Shown here: piece by piece, positions 363 through 7,620 of the stretch | Layout of the letters: every line of letters starts with the position of its first letter | How positions within the stretch are numbered: position 1 is the first letter of the stretch | IMG/VR virus record: IMGVR_UViG_3300030012_003221 | Span: 1-21,410 of that record | Origin: a virus | DNA: 21,410 nucleotides | Reading direction: 5' to 3' (one strand) | The notes under the pieces: generated by a model | Seen by the model: the letters and a program-made list of their open reading frames with translations, nothing else | Told to the model about the DNA's origin: nothing | Databases searched by the model: none | Program-made: the position numbers and the translations under genes

Positions 363-430
363 ATACCTAAAAACCACCCTCTGAGGTGTCCTCTATTGAA
401 TTTTGTGTGGGTGGTTAATGGTTTAGGTAT
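363..430. terminator. Long inverted repeat, possible bidirectional terminator
   Basis: Bases 363-371 (ATACCTAAA) pair perfectly with 422-430, and 372-379 (AACCACCC) pair with 409-416. This gives a 17-bp stem interrupted on one side by a five-base bulge at 417-421. The loop holds a further small hairpin, GAGG-TGT-CCTC, at 383-393. The element sits between two convergent genes, where a two-way terminator is expected. T-tracts beside it are weak on both strands, so termination is inferred from position and fold. Confidence 0.45.
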
Positions 431-444
431 AGGTAAAATGGCTG

Positions 445-915
445 TTATCTCCAACTTTTAGATTCATAAGAACCAAAAGAATGGTTGTCTTCTGCATGAA
501 GTAATGCATCCCATAAGTAGTCTGTATCTAATTCATTTGCAATATACCCTTGCAGAATACAATCAAAGTATGACTTCATAGGTTCACCATATTCATTTCT
601 ATTCATGGTGTAGAACATAACATCAGCTGTGTTTCCAAAATCACGTGCTAATTGTCCAGTCATTTTGATAGTGAAATATTCTTTTCTGTAAAGTATTGGA
701 AACCCTTCAAAAATATCAAGTGCATGTTCACACTTATCTGTGATATCCCAAAGAACACCTTCCACACTTGCACCTTTGTAATACTCAATATCTGCAACAC
801 CTTTGAAAACTAATCTGTAATCTTGCAAAGTAAATTTCACAATCTTCTTAGCATTAGGGCATCTTCCCTTCATGTTTTCTAAATTAAGATTGGCACCGTA
901 AGCAAAGTAAAACAT
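445..915 (-). CDS. Gamma-glutamylcyclotransferase-like (AIG2/GGCT fold) protein
   Basis: The 156-residue protein opens directly with the GGCT/AIG2 signature: YGANL at residues 6-10, then M15 and RCP at 18-20. The family's usual catalytic glutamate fits E70 in DIFEGFP, followed by the usual Y..E. Enzymes of this fold convert gamma-glutamyl or epsilon-(gamma-glutamyl)-lysine amides to 5-oxoproline plus the free amine, in the cytoplasm. The length is normal for a complete single-domain member, with no signal peptide. It is the last gene of a three-gene minus-strand set, starting two bases after the 79-residue gene ends, with an AGGTGG-type ribosome site about seven bases ahead of its ATG. Pairing with an amidoligase suggests it removes or edits an amide-linked glutamyl group. 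The substrate is unknown. Confidence 0.85.
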   Translation of the reverse strand: MFYFAYGANLNLENMKGRCPNAKKIVKFTLQDYRLVFKGVADIEYYKGASVEGVLWDITDKCEHALDIFEGFPILYRKEYFTIKMTGQLARDFGNTADVMFYTMNRNEYGEPMKSYFDCILQGYIANELDTDYLWDALLHAEDNHSFGSYESKSWR

Positions 916-917
916 AA

Positions 918-1157
918 TTACACCACCTTCTGTTGAATCAAACCATGTAACTCTAGGTCATCAACAAATGAATCTGGTGAATCATTGGAAACGTTCCAAC
1001 CAAACTGTGTGTGTATTCTTTTGCATGTGGAAACCATCCACTGTTGGAAAGTATCACTGGGTGCAAGAGATAACTCATACAATGCAAATGCAATGTCCTG
1101 TTTTGTCTTACCACGTAGAATACCTCCACCTTTTACAACATACTCTAACTTGTGCAT
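918..1157 (-). CDS. Unknown 79-residue protein between amidoligase and cyclotransferase genes
   Basis: I do not recognise this protein. It is soluble-looking, with no membrane segment. It has a basic start (HKLEYVVKGGGILRGKTKQD), a central amphipathic helix region (IAFALYELSL...FQQWM) and an acidic C-terminal part (DSPDSFVDDLELHGL). The ATG overlaps the end of the amidoligase gene by 13 bases and is preceded by a strong AAGGAGA ribosome site five bases away, so it is very likely translated and coupled to the amidoligase. Its place between two enzymes of opposite chemistry suggests a partner, substrate or carrier peptide, but that is inference from position only. Confidence 0.65.
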   Translation of the reverse strand: MHKLEYVVKGGGILRGKTKQDIAFALYELSLAPSDTFQQWMVSTCKRIHTQFGWNVSNDSPDSFVDDLELHGLIQQKVV

Positions 1158-2050
1158 AACTGTCTCCTTCTTTTGATAAAGTATTTCCTAACATCATTGT
1201 CAACCAATGAATTCTTAACCTTTGATAAACCCTTCAACATGAGTGCAATTTTATCTGTGTAATCCAATCTGTTGTCATCTTCTTTCACTTTGATTGCTCT
1301 GTGTTGATCTGCCGCTTGACACATTGTCAAACAAAACTTTAACCAGTTCATAATCTTTTCTACATCGGTTGTACCACTGTGGTGTCTAAACTCTACAGTT
1401 CCATGTTTCCAAAAAGACTTAATGTTAAGTTTTGTATATCTAGTTCTTAACAAACTTGAAATTTGTCTAGCTGATCTACAATCATCAATTGCTTCAAATG
1501 ATTGTTTCAATCCAGTGATTCCAAGTATTGGAATACAATACTCATTGTTTCTTCCTCTTCTAGAATTTGGCATTACAGAATCAATTGCACTTTCAAACTT
1601 AATGTAACGCTTGAAAAGGTTTCTGAATTCTTTGATCTTCCAATCTGAAACACCAACATGAACATGTAACCCACATGATTTGTTAACTCTTGCACCAATT
1701 CTTTCAAGTGCTTTCAACATATGTTGTAACTGTTGAACACCGTTCTCACCTTGTAATACTGGTGATACAAGTTCCATTGCGTAACCAACACCATATGAAC
1801 TCAATGATTGATCTGGTTTCAATCTCCACTTTGTTGAATCACAATCACTGTAAGACGCACGACTCACTGATAAGGAGAATGGTGATACCAAATCCCCAGA
1901 TAAACCACTAGTTCCAAAGTCTTGTGCAAGTCGTTGAAAGAATTGATTCATTTCTGCTTCTGTTGTTGCGCAATCATTTGGTGCAATAAACTCAATCTCA
2001 ACACCAAAGGTTCTAAGATTGTTCCAGATTTCTTTTTCTTGATTTTCCAT
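1145..2050 (-). CDS. Putative amidoligase (glutamine-synthetase-like fold, Amidoligase_2 family)
   Basis: The 301-residue protein shows the motif series of the COOH-NH2 ligase branch of glutamine-synthetase-like enzymes: FGVEIEF at 15-21 (E18, E20), a DQSL at 80-83, MELVSP at 92-97, CGLHVHVG at 126-133 (H129, H131), RYTKLN at 204-209, and TVEFRHHSGT at 218-227. The acidic and His residues are the expected metal/ATP ligands, so the active site looks complete. Family members are predicted to join a carboxylate to an amine using ATP, making peptides or isopeptide tags. Length is typical of a full domain. The ATG has a GAGG ribosome site. The gene leads a minus-strand operon with the 79-residue gene and a cyclotransferase-like gene; a promoter candidate lies 30-60 bases upstream. 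Substrates cannot be read from the sequence. Confidence 0.85.
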   Translation of the reverse strand: MENQEKEIWNNLRTFGVEIEFIAPNDCATTEAEMNQFFQRLAQDFGTSGLSGDLVSPFSLSVSRASYSDCDSTKWRLKPDQSLSSYGVGYAMELVSPVLQGENGVQQLQHMLKALERIGARVNKSCGLHVHVGVSDWKIKEFRNLFKRYIKFESAIDSVMPNSRRGRNNEYCIPILGITGLKQSFEAIDDCRSARQISSLLRTRYTKLNIKSFWKHGTVEFRHHSGTTDVEKIMNWLKFCLTMCQAADQHRAIKVKEDDNRLDYTDKIALMLKGLSKVKNSLVDNDVRKYFIKRRRQLCTS

Positions 2051-2081: not shown

Positions 2082-2113
2082 ATTATAACAACTAGGGTTA
2101 TCATTACAACCCT
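2082..2113 (-). promoter_or_regulatory. Promoter candidate with inverted repeat for the amidoligase cluster
   Basis: On the minus strand a perfect TATAAT (bases 2087-2082) lies 16 bases from TTGTAA (2109-2104), a 4/6 match to the -35 consensus. It points at the amidoligase gene starting at 2050. A 6-bp inverted repeat, AGGGTT (2094-2099) and AACCCT (2108-2113) with an 8-base spacer, overlaps the -35 box. It could be an operator, or a weak terminator of the upstream 351-residue gene. Confidence 0.45.
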
Positions 2114-2132: not shown

Positions 2133-3188
2133 TTAACTTTCATTTCCTATTTGATAATCTTTGCTGATCACACCGATGTCTTTTTGTCCTCTGAAATGTG
2201 CTTTTACAAAAGTATGTTTACCTGAGGGCAATCTTCTAAGATGTTTCCTTACACCATGAAACCTAGTACCACCTGAACGACCAGTGGATACACCCTTAGT
2301 TTGATTATCATATAAATTAACTTTCAAAACCTTATGTTCCCAAGTTGGTTTAAACATAAGAGTGCTTTTCTTATATTTTCTTGGTTCAATTATTGAAGGA
2401 CGTTTGCTAGGTTGTAAACCTTTTACGTTTTCAACAGTAGCTATGTTTGGAAACTGTGTAAGCATGTTGTATTCAAATAAAACATCATTACAAACCTGTA
2501 CAGTGTTCTTAAGACTTTCATTTGAGTAAACACCATTTTCATCACCACTTGTGTCTATACGATTAAAGAATGGTTGATCAGGAGATAACCAAAAATGATA
2601 ATTACCTTTTTCGTCCCATGTCATATCATAAAAAGCATGATCAAGATGTATAACGTCTTGACCCTGATCATATGAAAATAAAACACAAGTAAGAATTTGA
2701 TTACCTTCATCATCCATACCATCCAAAGAACCATCTGTTAATTTATTACTATCCATTACCCAAAGGTTTTGAATCAATCTTCTATTCTTAAAATATTTTG
2801 GTTCTGAATTTCTAGTACTCATCATTTTTAAATCACGTTCAACTTCCCATTGAATAAAAGTGTTTGGAAATGGAATGATCATTTTTACTTCTTCTGCAAC
2901 AGACAATCTTTCCTCATTAGTAAGACCATCTTTTTCAAAAGGAATAAATATTTTAGTAGCAGTAGATATCCCAACACTAACCATATCCCAAAATAATTTT
3001 ATATCTGCATATTCTTGTTGAACTAATTCAAAACCTTTTTCAGGTTTGTAAACATCTTTATAGTCAAGCATTCCAGTATTTAAATGTGGTAATGCACTAA
3101 ACTTATCTGCAAACTTATTGAAACCTTTTTTTGTACCATCAAAAAGATTCTTTGCATGTATCAATTTTTCAATTACATATTTATTCAT
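2133..3188 (-). CDS. Unknown 351-residue protein with C-terminal basic motif
   Basis: The ATG at 3188 is chosen over an in-frame one at 3251 because AGGAAAG sits seven bases upstream and the ATG overlaps the preceding stop as ATGA. The protein has no signal peptide or membrane segment. The first third is helical and charged. The middle is rich in aromatic and acidic residues, including FPNTFIQWEVE, D..NKLTDGSLDGMDDEG and WLSPDQPFF. The end is basic, with a VRKHLRRLPSGK segment, then HFRG and KDYQIG. The combination of arginines, histidines and an S-G-K turn near the C-terminus is one I associate with conserved phage hypothetical proteins, but I cannot name a family or a function. It ends an operon of three translationally coupled unknown genes. 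Confidence 0.7.
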   Translation of the reverse strand: MNKYVIEKLIHAKNLFDGTKKGFNKFADKFSALPHLNTGMLDYKDVYKPEKGFELVQQEYADIKLFWDMVSVGISTATKIFIPFEKDGLTNEERLSVAEEVKMIIPFPNTFIQWEVERDLKMMSTRNSEPKYFKNRRLIQNLWVMDSNKLTDGSLDGMDDEGNQILTCVLFSYDQGQDVIHLDHAFYDMTWDEKGNYHFWLSPDQPFFNRIDTSGDENGVYSNESLKNTVQVCNDVLFEYNMLTQFPNIATVENVKGLQPSKRPSIIEPRKYKKSTLMFKPTWEHKVLKVNLYDNQTKGVSTGRSGGTRFHGVRKHLRRLPSGKHTFVKAHFRGQKDIGVISKDYQIGNES

Positions 3189-3382
3189 GTGATCTTTCCT
3201 GTTTTGATATTTACCATACACAAAACACCATAGTGATTTTTGAGAACCCAAACACCAAGTGTTTCTATTTTCTGTGAAAGTTCTTCACATGGGTAAGAAT
3301 CTTCATTAAGACCACTCCCAATTTGATCTTCACAAAAACATGCCCAGTGATAAACTGCTTGTGTAAATGTATTAGCTTTCAT
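3185..3382 (-). CDS. Unknown 65-residue protein
   Basis: The start at 3382 is supported by an excellent AAGGAGG ribosome site four bases ahead; the in-frame ATG at 3442 would sit deep inside the neighbouring gene. The gene overlaps the end of the 75-residue gene by 11 bases and joins the 351-residue gene through ATGA, so the three are coupled. The protein begins KANTFTQAVYHWACFCEDQIG and contains four cysteines in all, two of them as CFC. It has no recognised domain. Confidence 0.6.
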   Translation of the reverse strand: MKANTFTQAVYHWACFCEDQIGSGLNEDSYPCEELSQKIETLGVWVLKNHYGVLCMVNIKTGKIT

Positions 3383-3599
3383 CAATCCTCCTTGTTCCAC
3401 ACGGAACATTGTTGTATTCAACGTCATACCATTGCCATACAAGTTCCCTGTATTTCAACCATATGTTTCCGAATAGTTTTTCCATACCCCTGTTAGCACC
3501 ATCATAACCAAACTCTTGAACGAATTCAGGATAGTTATGCTTGATACTAGATAGAGTAAGTGAACTTAGTATTTCACATTCTTGTTTTGATATATTCAT
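3372..3599 (-). CDS. Unknown 75-residue protein
   Basis: This is the first gene of the three-gene minus-strand set leading away from the terminase genes. The ATG has a GAGAGG ribosome site about five bases upstream. The protein looks helical, with an acidic start (NISKQECEIL), a central FGYDGANRGMEKLFGNIW and an aromatic patch (ELVWQWYDVEY). No family is recognised. A small helical protein leading an operon beside a palindromic promoter could be a regulator, but no helix-turn-helix is clear. Confidence 0.6.
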   Translation of the reverse strand: MNISKQECEILSSLTLSSIKHNYPEFVQEFGYDGANRGMEKLFGNIWLKYRELVWQWYDVEYNNVPCGTRRIDES

Positions 3600-3625
3600 T
3601 TATTACCTCTCTTTTCAATAATCAA

Positions 3626-3643
3626 TGTTTATAAGTATAAACA
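3626..3643. promoter_or_regulatory. Perfect 8-bp palindrome, operator candidate
   Basis: TGTTTATA (3626-3633), a two-base AG spacer and TATAAACA (3636-3643) form a perfect inverted repeat. It lies in the 136-base region between the divergent unknown operon and the terminase genes, and it covers the -10 box proposed for the minus-strand operon. That is where a repressor dimer would block transcription. No such repressor is identified in the window. Confidence 0.45.
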
Positions 3644-3662
3644 ATTAGATAACATTATGCAA
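3634..3662 (-). promoter_or_regulatory. Promoter candidate for the three-gene unknown operon
   Basis: On the minus strand TATACT (3639-3634), a 5/6 match to the -10 box, follows TTGCAT (3662-3657) with a 17-base spacer. The first gene starts 35 bases further on, at 3599. The -10 box is embedded in the palindrome at 3626-3643. For the rightward terminase genes I see only weaker boxes near 3669-3698. Confidence 0.4.
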
Positions 3663-3735
3663 ACCCATTTTGTATATTATTAAAACTTTGTGATAGACTA
3701 CGGAGAAAAAGAGAGAATTTTTGGATAATTTTTAA

Positions 3736-4296
3736 GTGGCTAAATCAAGAAAACTAACAAAGCAAATTGCAGAAAAGATACGAATTGAATACGTTCAAGG
3801 TATTGATCTAGGCACTACAGAAAAGAAATATCAAACCATTGAAGCACTTGCAGTAAAATTTAAAGTTGCTAAAAGTACTTTATATAAGTGGGCACAAAGA
3901 GAAGGTTGGAAGTCTCAACAGGAAAGATTCAATGAAGAATTCATGCAGAAAATTGATGCACAAAGACAAAAGGAGATGGTTAAAAATTCCAAGTCATTAG
4001 ATGATACTGCATTACAACTATCAAAAATACTTATGAACGAAATCGGATTACTGTTACAAGAAAACAATCAAAAGCGACAACAGGGATTAACACCAATGAC
4101 ACCAGTTATGATTTATCAACTAGGTAATGCAAGTTTACAGGCACAGAAACTTGGAAAGATAGCAACAGGAGAATCAACGGAAAATATAAAACTAAATGCA
4201 GAAGTTACAGACACCAATGCCTTCAGAGAAGCTATGGAACTGCTTGACGAGGTTGCAAGAGCAAAACGAAAAGCAGACGATTCGGCTATACACTGA
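3736..4296 (+). CDS. terS: Terminase small subunit
   Basis: The 186-residue protein has an N-terminal helix-turn-helix at about residues 34-58 (YQTIEALAVKFKVAKSTLYKW, then REGW), followed by long charged helices. This is the pattern of small terminases that bind the packaging site and hand DNA to the large subunit. The gene sits directly before the large terminase gene. The start is a GTG immediately after an in-frame TAA with a poor ribosome site; a GGAG lies over 30 bases upstream. No later start keeps the helix-turn-helix, so GTG is accepted. The C-terminal helix (AMELLDEVARAKRKADD) is encoded in the region overlapping the next gene. Confidence 0.8.
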   Translation: MAKSRKLTKQIAEKIRIEYVQGIDLGTTEKKYQTIEALAVKFKVAKSTLYKWAQREGWKSQQERFNEEFMQKIDAQRQKEMVKNSKSLDDTALQLSKILMNEIGLLLQENNQKRQQGLTPMTPVMIYQLGNASLQAQKLGKIATGESTENIKLNAEVTDTNAFREAMELLDEVARAKRKADDSAIH

Positions 4297-5503
4297 ATGG
4301 TTGAAAACAGCTAGATCAAAGCAACTATCTCCAGAAGAAGATTACTTTATCTGGTTGATACTTGCAGGTCGTGGTTGGGGTAAAACCAAAACAGGGGCAC
4401 AAGACATTGCTCTATATGCCTTGCGAAACCCAAATACTATAAGTGCTGTTGTTGCTCCCACCTTTGGTGATTTGCGAAGGGTTTGTTTCGGTGGACCATC
4501 AGGACTTTTATCAATCATACCTTCTGAATGCACAGACCCAAGTTTTGGCACGAATGGTTTTGCAAGTGCAAACATGGAAATAAGATTAGCTAATGGTTCT
4601 AAAATAGTTGGTTTTGCAGCAGTATCACCAGAAAGACTAAGAGGACCACAGTTCCATAGAGCATGGTGTGATGAACTTGCATCATGGCAATACCCAGAAG
4701 CATTTGATCAACTTATGTTTGGACTAAGACTTGGAGACAATCCTCAGTGCTTGATAACTACAACACCAAAACCGATAAAGATAATTAAAGATTTATTAGA
4801 TAGAGAAGACGTTCATGTTACACGTGGTAACACATTTGAGAATGCAGATAACTTGGCAGAAAGTGCTCTACAAATGATGAAGGAAAGATATGAAGGAACT
4901 TCTTTAGGAAGACAAGAATTGTATGCAGAAATTGTTGATGATGTTGAAGGTGCATTATGGACAAGCAATATGATAGAAGATCAAAGGTTAAATAAAGAAA
5001 CTGAAAGAGACTTGCAATCAATTATTGTTGCAGTAGACCCTGCAGTTACAAGTGGATCACAGTCAGATGAAACAGGAATTATTGTAGTTGGAAAAGATTA
5101 TAATAATCACTTCTACGTATTAGAAGACATTTCAGGAAGACATACAGCCGACAATTGGGGTAGAATAGTACTTAATGCTTACTATGAATGGGAAGCAGAT
5201 AGAATAATAGCTGAAGTTAACAATGGTGGAGATTTAGTTGAGAAGCTAATTAGGGATAAAGACCCTAATGCATCTTATAGATCAGTAAGAGCTACAAGAG
5301 GTAAAATGCTAAGAGCAGAACCGATAGCAGCACTTTACGAGCAGGGGCGAGTTCATCATATGGGTGTGTTTGGAGAATTAGAACAACAAATGTGTTCATA
5401 TGTAGGTCAGCTGAAACCAAGCCCAGATAGATTAGATGCTTTAGTTTGGGGATTAACAGAACTAAGCAAATCTTCTGGTAAAGCTAATTGGAGAATAAGC
5501 TAA
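4196..5503 (+). CDS. terL: Terminase large subunit (ATPase and nuclease)
   Basis: This is the packaging motor. The ATPase part has a Walker A, AGRGWGKT at residues 57-64, Walker B CDE at 158-160 (D159, E160), and a TTTP coupling motif near 188. The nuclease part, an RNase H-like fold, has D281 in AVDPAV, E340 in IIAEVNNGGD and D414 in PDRLDAL. All key residues are present. The start is uncertain: the ATG at 4196 lies 101 bases inside terS and has a weak ribosome site. TTG codons at 4244 and 4253 are alternatives. Conservation of the LYTEW..TARSKQL stretch before Walker A, as I recall from related terminases, argues against a start as late as 4301. The stop overlaps the portal ATG (TAATG). Confidence 0.95.
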   Translation: MQKLQTPMPSEKLWNCLTRLQEQNEKQTIRLYTEWLKTARSKQLSPEEDYFIWLILAGRGWGKTKTGAQDIALYALRNPNTISAVVAPTFGDLRRVCFGGPSGLLSIIPSECTDPSFGTNGFASANMEIRLANGSKIVGFAAVSPERLRGPQFHRAWCDELASWQYPEAFDQLMFGLRLGDNPQCLITTTPKPIKIIKDLLDREDVHVTRGNTFENADNLAESALQMMKERYEGTSLGRQELYAEIVDDVEGALWTSNMIEDQRLNKETERDLQSIIVAVDPAVTSGSQSDETGIIVVGKDYNNHFYVLEDISGRHTADNWGRIVLNAYYEWEADRIIAEVNNGGDLVEKLIRDKDPNASYRSVRATRGKMLRAEPIAALYEQGRVHHMGVFGELEQQMCSYVGQLKPSPDRLDALVWGLTELSKSSGKANWRIS

Positions 5504-7620
5504 TGGCAGAGAAAACATTTTTTCAAAGGTTATTTAACATAGAACCAAGTCAGGTCAAACAATCAAACATGATGGGTTATTTCGGTGTAGGAACTGATGA
5601 ACCTAAAAAATATAAATATCAAGACTTAGCAAAAGAAGGGTATTTAAAAAATGCAATTGTTTATAGATGTGTAAATGAAATATCAAAAGGTGCAAGTGCT
5701 GTTCCTTTCATTATTAAAGCAGGAGATCAAATCATTGAAGATCACCCACTTATTTCTTTACTGAAAAGACCTAACCCATTACAAAGTTATTCAGAATTCT
5801 TTAACAGTTTGTATGGTTATCTTTTATTAAGTGGTAATGCATATATATTAAAAGTTGGTGCAGAAACAGGCCCACCACAGGAATTGCACCAACTAAGACC
5901 AGATAGAATTGAAATAAAAGGTAATGGTAATGCAATACCAGAAAACTATAAATATATGATCAATGGACGTGTTCAAGCTACTTATCCTGTAGATCAAGAG
6001 AATGGTTTTAGTGAATTGAAACATGTAAAGTTATGGAATCCATTAGATGATTATTACGGTTTATCACCGATGAGTGCCGCGGCTGTTGAAGTAGATCAAT
6101 TTAATATGTCAAGTAAACACAACGTAAACCTATTACAGAACGGTGCTAGACCAAGTGGTGCAGTTATATTCAAACCACAAGATGATTCTGGTTTTAATGT
6201 TAACCTTACAGAATCACAAAGACAACAACTGTTAACAGACTTAAATAACAGGTTTAGTGGAACAGGTAATGCAGGAAGACCTTTACTTCTTGAAGGGGAT
6301 TTTGATTGGCGTGAAATGGGTCTTTCACCAAAAGATATGGACTTTTTAAATCTTAAACACATGAGTGCAACGGATATTGCAATGTGTTTTGGTGTTCCAA
6401 ATCAATTGGTTGGTGTACCTGATTCACAAACATATTCAAACGTTGCAGAGGCAAGACTTGCTCTGTATGAAGAAACAATCATCCCACACCTTAGAAAAAT
6501 TGCTAGTGATCTTAATGAATGGTTAGTACCAATGTTTGATGAAAGATTAACACTGGAATTTGATATAGATTCAATCCCTGCATTATCTGAAAGACGTAAA
6601 AAGATTTATGAGAACGTAACAAGTGCAGTAAGAGAAGGAATTATGACAAGAAATGAAGCAAGACAAGTCATTGGTTTACAACCTGTAGATGGTGCAGATG
6701 ATCTTTACATTTCTGCAACACTTTTCCCTATTGGAGATAATGAAGTTGAAAAACCTGAAAATCCATTAAAAGAAGAAGATGTAGATACATATAATGACCT
6801 AGATGCTGAAATAGAATTCTTTTTAGAGGAAGAAAAGAATGATGATGTTACTAACTTTCCTAAACGTGGTGATAATAAAAAGATATCACTAAGAAACAGT
6901 GCATATCCACAGTTTGATTACACATTTGCAAAAAACTTAAAAGAAGTAGGTGTTGGTAAACAAATATGGAAAGCAGGTGGCAACATAAGGGGTAATGAAG
7001 CATTTATGTTGTGGGGGAGAGCCAGAGCAGGTTCAGAATCACCTGCAGTGCTTAAATGGATAAAAGAAAGAGAAGCATGGGCTGCAAGACATTCCGTTGT
7101 TGACGGAAATCAGTTTGTAAGTGGTAACAAAGAACCAAACATGTCAAATGTTGCAGGTGTTGTTGCGCTTATCAAATGGGGTGTGATAAATCCCAAACTT
7201 GGAAAACAAGGAATGAAAGATGTAATTCTTGAACTTACCAAGAAGTTAGAAGGCAGAAAACAATTAGAAGATTTTGAACCAGAAACAGATGATACACACA
7301 TTTCGGTTGTTGAAGATACAAAACAAGTATCTGCAAAAGTGAAAGAAGCTCTTAAGAAAAAGGTTGATAAACACAACGAGAAATACGGTGATAACCCAAA
7401 GAAAAGGGCAACAGTAAGAATGTTGGAAGCGGTGTTTAGACGTGGTGTAGGAGCATATAACACCAATCCTCAAAGCGTACGTCCGAGAGTTTCTGGACCT
7501 GATCAATGGGCATATGCGAGGGTGAATTCGTTTTTAGCCGCATTAAGAACTGGAAGGTTTCAAGGTGGTAAACATGATCAAGATTTATTTCCTAAAGGAC
7601 ACCCATTATCTAGTAAATGA
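5503..7620 (+). CDS. Portal protein with long C-terminal extension
   Basis: The 705-residue protein is the dodecameric portal through which DNA enters and leaves the head. Residues 1 to about 410 match an HK97-type portal: AIVYRCVNEIS, HPLISLLKRPNP, LLLSGNAY, ETIIPHLRKI and EARQVIGLQPVDG. The ATG at 5503 overlaps the terL stop; a TTG 15 bases earlier is rejected. After an acidic linker (about 415-450) come roughly 240 extra residues that HK97-type portals usually lack. One module, about 466-565, has IWKAGGNIRGNEAF and WGRARAG followed by WIKEREAWAARH. A second, about 615-705, has RATVRMLEAVFRRGVGAYNT, PDQWAYARVN and FPKGHPLSS. I know similar segments from other phage head proteins but not their role. 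The next gene starts within the stop codon (ATGA). Confidence 0.92.
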   Translation: MAEKTFFQRLFNIEPSQVKQSNMMGYFGVGTDEPKKYKYQDLAKEGYLKNAIVYRCVNEISKGASAVPFIIKAGDQIIEDHPLISLLKRPNPLQSYSEFFNSLYGYLLLSGNAYILKVGAETGPPQELHQLRPDRIEIKGNGNAIPENYKYMINGRVQATYPVDQENGFSELKHVKLWNPLDDYYGLSPMSAAAVEVDQFNMSSKHNVNLLQNGARPSGAVIFKPQDDSGFNVNLTESQRQQLLTDLNNRFSGTGNAGRPLLLEGDFDWREMGLSPKDMDFLNLKHMSATDIAMCFGVPNQLVGVPDSQTYSNVAEARLALYEETIIPHLRKIASDLNEWLVPMFDERLTLEFDIDSIPALSERRKKIYENVTSAVREGIMTRNEARQVIGLQPVDGADDLYISATLFPIGDNEVEKPENPLKEEDVDTYNDLDAEIEFFLEEEKNDDVTNFPKRGDNKKISLRNSAYPQFDYTFAKNLKEVGVGKQIWKAGGNIRGNEAFMLWGRARAGSESPAVLKWIKEREAWAARHSVVDGNQFVSGNKEPNMSNVAGVVALIKWGVINPKLGKQGMKDVILELTKKLEGRKQLEDFEPETDDTHISVVEDTKQVSAKVKEALKKKVDKHNEKYGDNPKKRATVRMLEAVFRRGVGAYNTNPQSVRPRVSGPDQWAYARVNSFLAALRTGRFQGGKHDQDLFPKGHPLSSK

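Follow-up and report, generated by a model that had tools for sequence, protein, structure and literature searches.

A small, previously uncatalogued protein family is a more constant partner of a phage-borne amidoligase than the gamma-glutamylcyclotransferase

Results

We found that a small gene, coding for a protein of 79 amino acids, is the most constant partner of the amidoligase gene carried in the window (the whole stretch of 21,410 nucleotides of viral DNA analysed here, an IMG/VR record), and that the gamma-glutamylcyclotransferase (GGCT) gene of the same operon is an optional companion of the amidoligase, less constant than the small gene. Since the GGCT is optional and the small gene more constant, the core unit is probably formed by the amidoligase and the small protein. 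The initial annotation had presented the operon as a cassette of two enzymes; both enzymes are indeed encoded, but the third and more constant gene (918-1157) was absent from that account.

Organization of the operon

The operon comprises three minus-strand genes, running from 2050 to 1145, from 1157 to 918 and from 915 to 445. The amidoligase gene overlaps the 79-aa gene by 13 nt, and a gap of 2 nt separates the 79-aa gene from the GGCT gene. The features of the region are:

3-341: 3' fragment of a ParB-like gene (phrog_2159)
363..430, no strand assigned: hairpin in the convergent gap 3' of the GGCT gene (fold -21.7 kcal/mol, z=-3.5; arms 363-379/409-430)
445..915, minus strand: last operon gene, GGCT/AIG2 fold, 156 aa (PF06094, phrog_2520, YGANL, E70)
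918..1157, minus strand: operon gene 2, small uncatalogued partner protein, 79 aa (HMM family adjoining amidoligases; AF2 model; third-codon-position bias of the ORF)
1145..2050, minus strand: operon gene 1, Amidoligase_2, predicted GS-fold ATP-dependent ligase, 301 aa (PF12224, fold, conserved residues)
2082..2109, minus strand: promoter-like site TTGTAA-16-TATAAT directly 5' of the amidoligase gene (10/12 match)
3736-5503: terminase genes

The location between a ParB-like gene and the terminase genes is as initially described, except that three more minus-strand ORFs intervene before the terminase. An inverted repeat, AGGGTT...AACCCT (2094-2113), spans the spacer of the promoter-like site, which sits in a stretch similar in several relatives (L019-L028). 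The total count of promoter-like sites in the region was no higher than in shuffles, so that the support for this site consists of its position and this similarity. The hairpin is a probable bidirectional terminator. With a promoter-like site upstream and a hairpin behind the GGCT gene, the operon looks like a self-contained accessory unit. The same trio of genes occurs in two sister contigs (L002 and L003, amidoligase 93-98% identical) and, at 43-56% amidoligase identity, in a set of related viral contigs, and the operon is therefore neither a chance arrangement nor an assembly artefact.

Several neighbouring genes were also noted. In the sister contig L002, genes for PAPS-reductase/DUF3440, cupin-domain and ParB-domain proteins (L002:2174-3388, 3457-4155 and 4152-4730) adjoin the operon and fall just past the left edge of the window; such neighbours recur in 13-24 related loci. 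A conserved minus-strand ORF of ~350 aa lies 5' of the operon (2133-3251) and has related genes in about six of the relatives; it is without a Pfam match, and nothing in PHROGs matched it better than 0.06. After the terminase genes, a plus-strand ORF of 710 aa (5488-7620) appears to start like a portal protein and has a long extra C-terminal part.

Both enzymes look intact

The amidoligase ORF matched PF12224 with E=1.1e-39 and 137 bits (cut-off 22) and phrog_2443 with 2e-44. Across 58 amidoligase relatives D80, E93, H129, H131, N209, E220 and R222 were present without exception, and E18, E20 and R204 were nearly invariant; all of these are putative catalytic residues of the amidoligase. The AlphaFold model has a pLDDT of 91, and Foldseek matched it to YbdK (1.6e-5) and also to glutamine synthetase and Dop/PafA. 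The protein has both a GS-like fold and conserved acidic, His and Arg active-site residues, looks intact, and is predicted from sequence and model to carry out ATP-dependent amide ligation.

The GGCT ORF matched PF06094 (3e-9) and phrog_2520 (2e-24). A direct alignment with human GGCT puts its YGANL on YGSNL, the YG[S/A]NL motif being present, and matches E70 to the position of the catalytic glutamate; the wild-type human enzyme has Glu there, the 3cry chain Gln. This enzyme also looks intact, and cyclotransferase activity is predicted. The initial description of an intact amidoligase and an intact GGCT in one tightly packed minus-strand operon therefore holds, in view of the PF12224 and PF06094 matches and the conserved active-site residues. 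That description had allowed that defective active sites, or a failure of the pair to recur in related phages, would speak against a shared pathway. Neither was found, since both enzymes look intact and the amidoligase-GGCT pair recurs in related and unrelated phages.

No solved structure in the PDB matched the amidoligase subfamily or the small protein by sequence, and the literature searched contained no biochemistry for either. Phage C75C1 encodes, adjoining its amidoligase, a single protein that combines a class-II GATase with a GGCT domain (L013:5702-6598).

Distribution of the small gene

The family of the 79-aa protein matched no entry of Pfam, PHROGs, NCBIfam, PADLOC or PDB; individual members gave weak Pfam and NCBIfam matches, which we took to be chance. 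On the basis of these resources we regard the family as previously uncatalogued; a mention in Iyer et al. 2009 is possible. Porphyromonas phage019b and Bacteroides-type elements have an equivalent small ORF 3' of the amidoligase. A profile built from five sequences and iterated over viral loci only collected 66 members in viral loci, and among 94 viral/phage loci the amidoligase was accompanied by the small gene in 63 and by a GGCT in 70. The 80 bacterial-genome loci constitute an independent test because none contributed to the profile. Here the small gene was present in 65, a GGCT in 10 and a class-II GATase in 8, every other BLAST cluster of neighbours was confined to at most 9 loci, and the GGCT was missing from 70 while the small gene stayed.

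Four more viral scans brought the set to 298 non-identical amidoligases, of which we counted the 256 whose downstream sequence reached 1,500 nt or more. The small gene was present in 177 of these loci vs 119 for the GGCT and 21 for a GATase, counts which describe one amidoligase subfamily and not all of PF12224, since the loci were chosen by similarity to the amidoligase, and whose percentages are not independent observations, as the loci share ancestry. A GATase and the small gene occurred together in 2 of the 21 GATase loci; the raw counts for mutual exclusion are strong but inseparable from shared ancestry, and we make no claim.

The position of the small gene is also regular, falling at -60 to +150 nt from the amidoligase end in 163 of its 177 loci. 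Of the 184 pairs in which the start of the small gene could be placed, 70 show an overlap with the amidoligase stop, and the commonest gap is -4 (33 pairs). Of the 79 loci otherwise without a small gene, 9 yielded weak candidates in a relaxed search, among them those of the Geobacillus GR1, Bacillus 055SW001 and Arthrobacter Ottawa phages. About 30% of the amidoligase loci are without a clear small gene, which is therefore not indispensable. Clustering at 60% identity gave 127 amidoligase representatives, 76 of them with the small gene; on the tree of these 127 rows its presence switches at least 22 times, indicating that it was gained and lost repeatedly.

We also searched from the small family back to the amidoligase. 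Reciprocal searches of eight genomes from the bacterial set gave exactly one small-family match per genome. In 200 Hymenobacteraceae genomes there were 19 small-domain matches, and comparison of coordinates between the small-family and PF12224 searches placed 15 of them next to a shorter, phage-type PF12224 gene. By alignment length the PF12224 proteins of these genomes form two groups, of ~34 longer and ~16 shorter members; the small gene adjoins nearly all of the shorter ones and was found beside none of the longer. The four matches without an amidoligase consist of three in which the small domain stands at the start of a protein of 149-154 aa and one with a disrupted frame. The fused proteins (L192:1504-1968, L193:1267-1716 and L195:1501-1959) have a common C-terminal part. 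The sample around Phocaeicola vulgatus contained few amidoligases.

The linkage between amidoligase and small gene spans phages, prophages and conjugative elements. In Bacteroides-type elements the two adjoin a ParA-type ATPase, and the same amidoligase-GGCT pair also adjoins a VirB4-type conjugation ATPase. A virion protein, suggested initially among the possible targets, is thus argued against as a general target, since the operon genes are also found on elements with conjugation or partition genes.

Predicted structure of the small protein

AlphaFold predicts a compact b-b-a-a-a-b fold for the small protein (pLDDT 93, pTM 0.84). Searched against the PDB, the model had no match at E<=0.001, and the query TM was <0.4 for all listed matches; two viral models match it over the full length with TM of 0.82-0.86. 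The best conserved residues are L68 and F64 (0.88 each), M41 (0.87), R47 (0.85) and G11 (0.83). In the alignment the C-terminus is variable and no Lys, Cys, Ser, Asp or Glu is invariant. Given this variable C-terminus and the lack of an invariant attachment residue, a binding or regulatory role is favoured over that of a tag, an acceptor with varying attachment sites being a lesser possibility. Mean-field DCA of the amidoligase and the small protein (198 pairs, Neff 126) returned fewer top-rank inter-protein pairs than chance, with one stronger inter-protein pair, A217-S47; plausible intra-protein pairs such as S5-S15 were recovered.

Discussion

We propose that the amidoligase and the small protein are a working unit that makes a gamma-glutamyl-type amide, with the GGCT as an optional trimming add-on, and our confidence in this reading is evenly balanced. 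The amidoligase would use ATP to link a carboxylate to an amine of a peptide or metabolite, the gamma-carboxylate of glutamate being the simplest case, and the translationally coupled protein of 77-79 aa would be its dedicated partner subunit or regulator. The GGCT, where present, would remove an exposed gamma-glutamyl group as 5-oxoproline, whereby the product would be limited, trimmed or deprotected. The GGCT reaction depends on a gamma-linked glutamate whose alpha-amino group is free, and a gamma-glutamyl amide would therefore be the simplest common substrate of the two enzymes. We infer the gamma-glutamyl chemistry, the physical partnership and the trimming role of the GGCT. Most plausibly the operon would serve to modify a host molecule, which may be an envelope peptide, to the benefit of the resident element, for instance in competition with other elements.

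In the initial interpretation the two enzymes made and erased a mark. A gamma-glutamyl bond that is made and cleaved is chemically sensible, and a cycle in which the amidoligase writes and the GGCT erases a regulated gamma-glutamyl mark, the small gene being incidental, agrees with the intact appearance of both enzymes, with the GGCT near 119 of 256 amidoligases, and with the occurrence of the same pair in Terrisporobacter, Clostridium and Heliusvirales phages. However, the GGCT is absent from 70 of the 80 bacterial loci though the small gene is retained, and since a gene found in 119 of 256 loci overall and 10 of 80 bacterial ones is not a constant partner, a make-and-erase cycle cannot be the core function; we consider this reading doubtful. 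The very strong linkage of the small gene to the amidoligase could also mean that the small protein is the substrate or carrier of the enzyme, in the manner of Pup, LysW or a RiPP, or is attached to a target, with the GGCT removing the group. The coupling of a small gene with a GS-fold ligase is reminiscent of Pup-PafA, and Dop/PafA is among the matches of the amidoligase model. We judge this unlikely, as the small protein is predicted to be a compact folded domain (pLDDT 93), its C-terminus varies and an invariant Lys, Cys, Ser, Asp or Glu is absent. Pup-PafA tagging employs a small disordered tag with a conserved C-terminal Gly-Gly-Gln/Glu. The small protein is predicted to be folded and neither its C-terminus nor any attachment side chain is conserved throughout, and a Pup-like tag was rejected as the main reading. 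We attach a low probability to a folded small-protein modification system in which the 77-79-aa protein would be a dedicated acceptor or tag and the GGCT an optional glutamyl remover.

Equal, coupled expression and conserved pairing would likewise be expected if the small protein were an inhibitor or antitoxin restraining a harmful ligase. The three operon proteins matched no model in PADLOC-DB 2.0, however, and so were not assigned to a defence system, and a separate chromosomal amidoligase lineage of the Hymenobacteraceae appears to manage without the small protein; we find this explanation very improbable. A question compatible with the unit of amidoligase and small protein is whether its target is the peptidoglycan or envelope, modified for superinfection exclusion, which we view as a tentative possibility. 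Such a role has been predicted in print for a five-enzyme module, and a benefit to the resident element would agree with the occurrence on temperate phages and conjugative elements. The window operon, though, is without three enzymes of that module, the COOH-NH2 ligase, the ATP-grasp and the GATase, and the literature searched contained no experimental test of the envelope-modification prediction.

If the core partner of the amidoligase is a small protein missed by annotation, activity tests of the ligase alone could fail without its subunit. That the operon genes are spread so widely over phages, prophages and conjugative elements suggests that they benefit mobile DNA in general.

Comparison with known systems

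A precedent for protective gamma-glutamylation is that of butirosin, where BtrJ and BtrG carry out ligation and then GGCT-fold removal of the gamma-glutamyl group. BtrJ is an ATP-grasp enzyme acting on an acyl-carrier protein, and homology of this ligase to the amidoligase is not claimed. YbdK, glutamine synthetase and PafA/Dop resemble the amidoligase in fold, with ~10-14% identity in the best matches, and belong to a different family.

The pairing of amidoligase and GGCT is already published for phages, namely phiEco32/LUZ24 and Terrisporobacter and Clostridium prophages. The phiEco32/LUZ24 'peptidoglycan modification module' consists of a COOH-NH2 ligase, amidoligase, GATase, ATP-grasp and GGCT. 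As quoted in later phage papers (PMC11318856, PMC11253131, PMC11945000), Iyer et al. 2009 predicted that the phiEco32 module modifies peptidoglycan or a receptor against competing phages. Since 2009 phage amidoligase operons have been annotated with a cell-wall hypothesis. Like the window, the phiEco32/LUZ24 module clusters a PF12224 amidoligase with a GGCT, but it has no detectable small-family protein, and its amidoligases are distantly related to that of the window (HMM 4e-18 and 6e-13). The scanned ORFs (window 1-5.5 kb and the L002 flank) gave no Pfam or PHROGs matches to COOH-NH2 ligase, GATase or ATP-grasp. In the Heliusvirales, Terrisporobacter TPDSL_ph1 and Clostridium clostridioforme prophages the amidoligase and GGCT genes are adjacent, in the Heliusvirales beside terminase or ParB genes. 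Their amidoligases, however, are 23-27% identical to that of the window, and those examined are without a detected small-family gene. Although no GGCT lies nearby in Porphyromonas phage019b and the Bacteroides-type loci, the amidoligase there is followed directly 3' by a member of the same small-protein family, as in the window.
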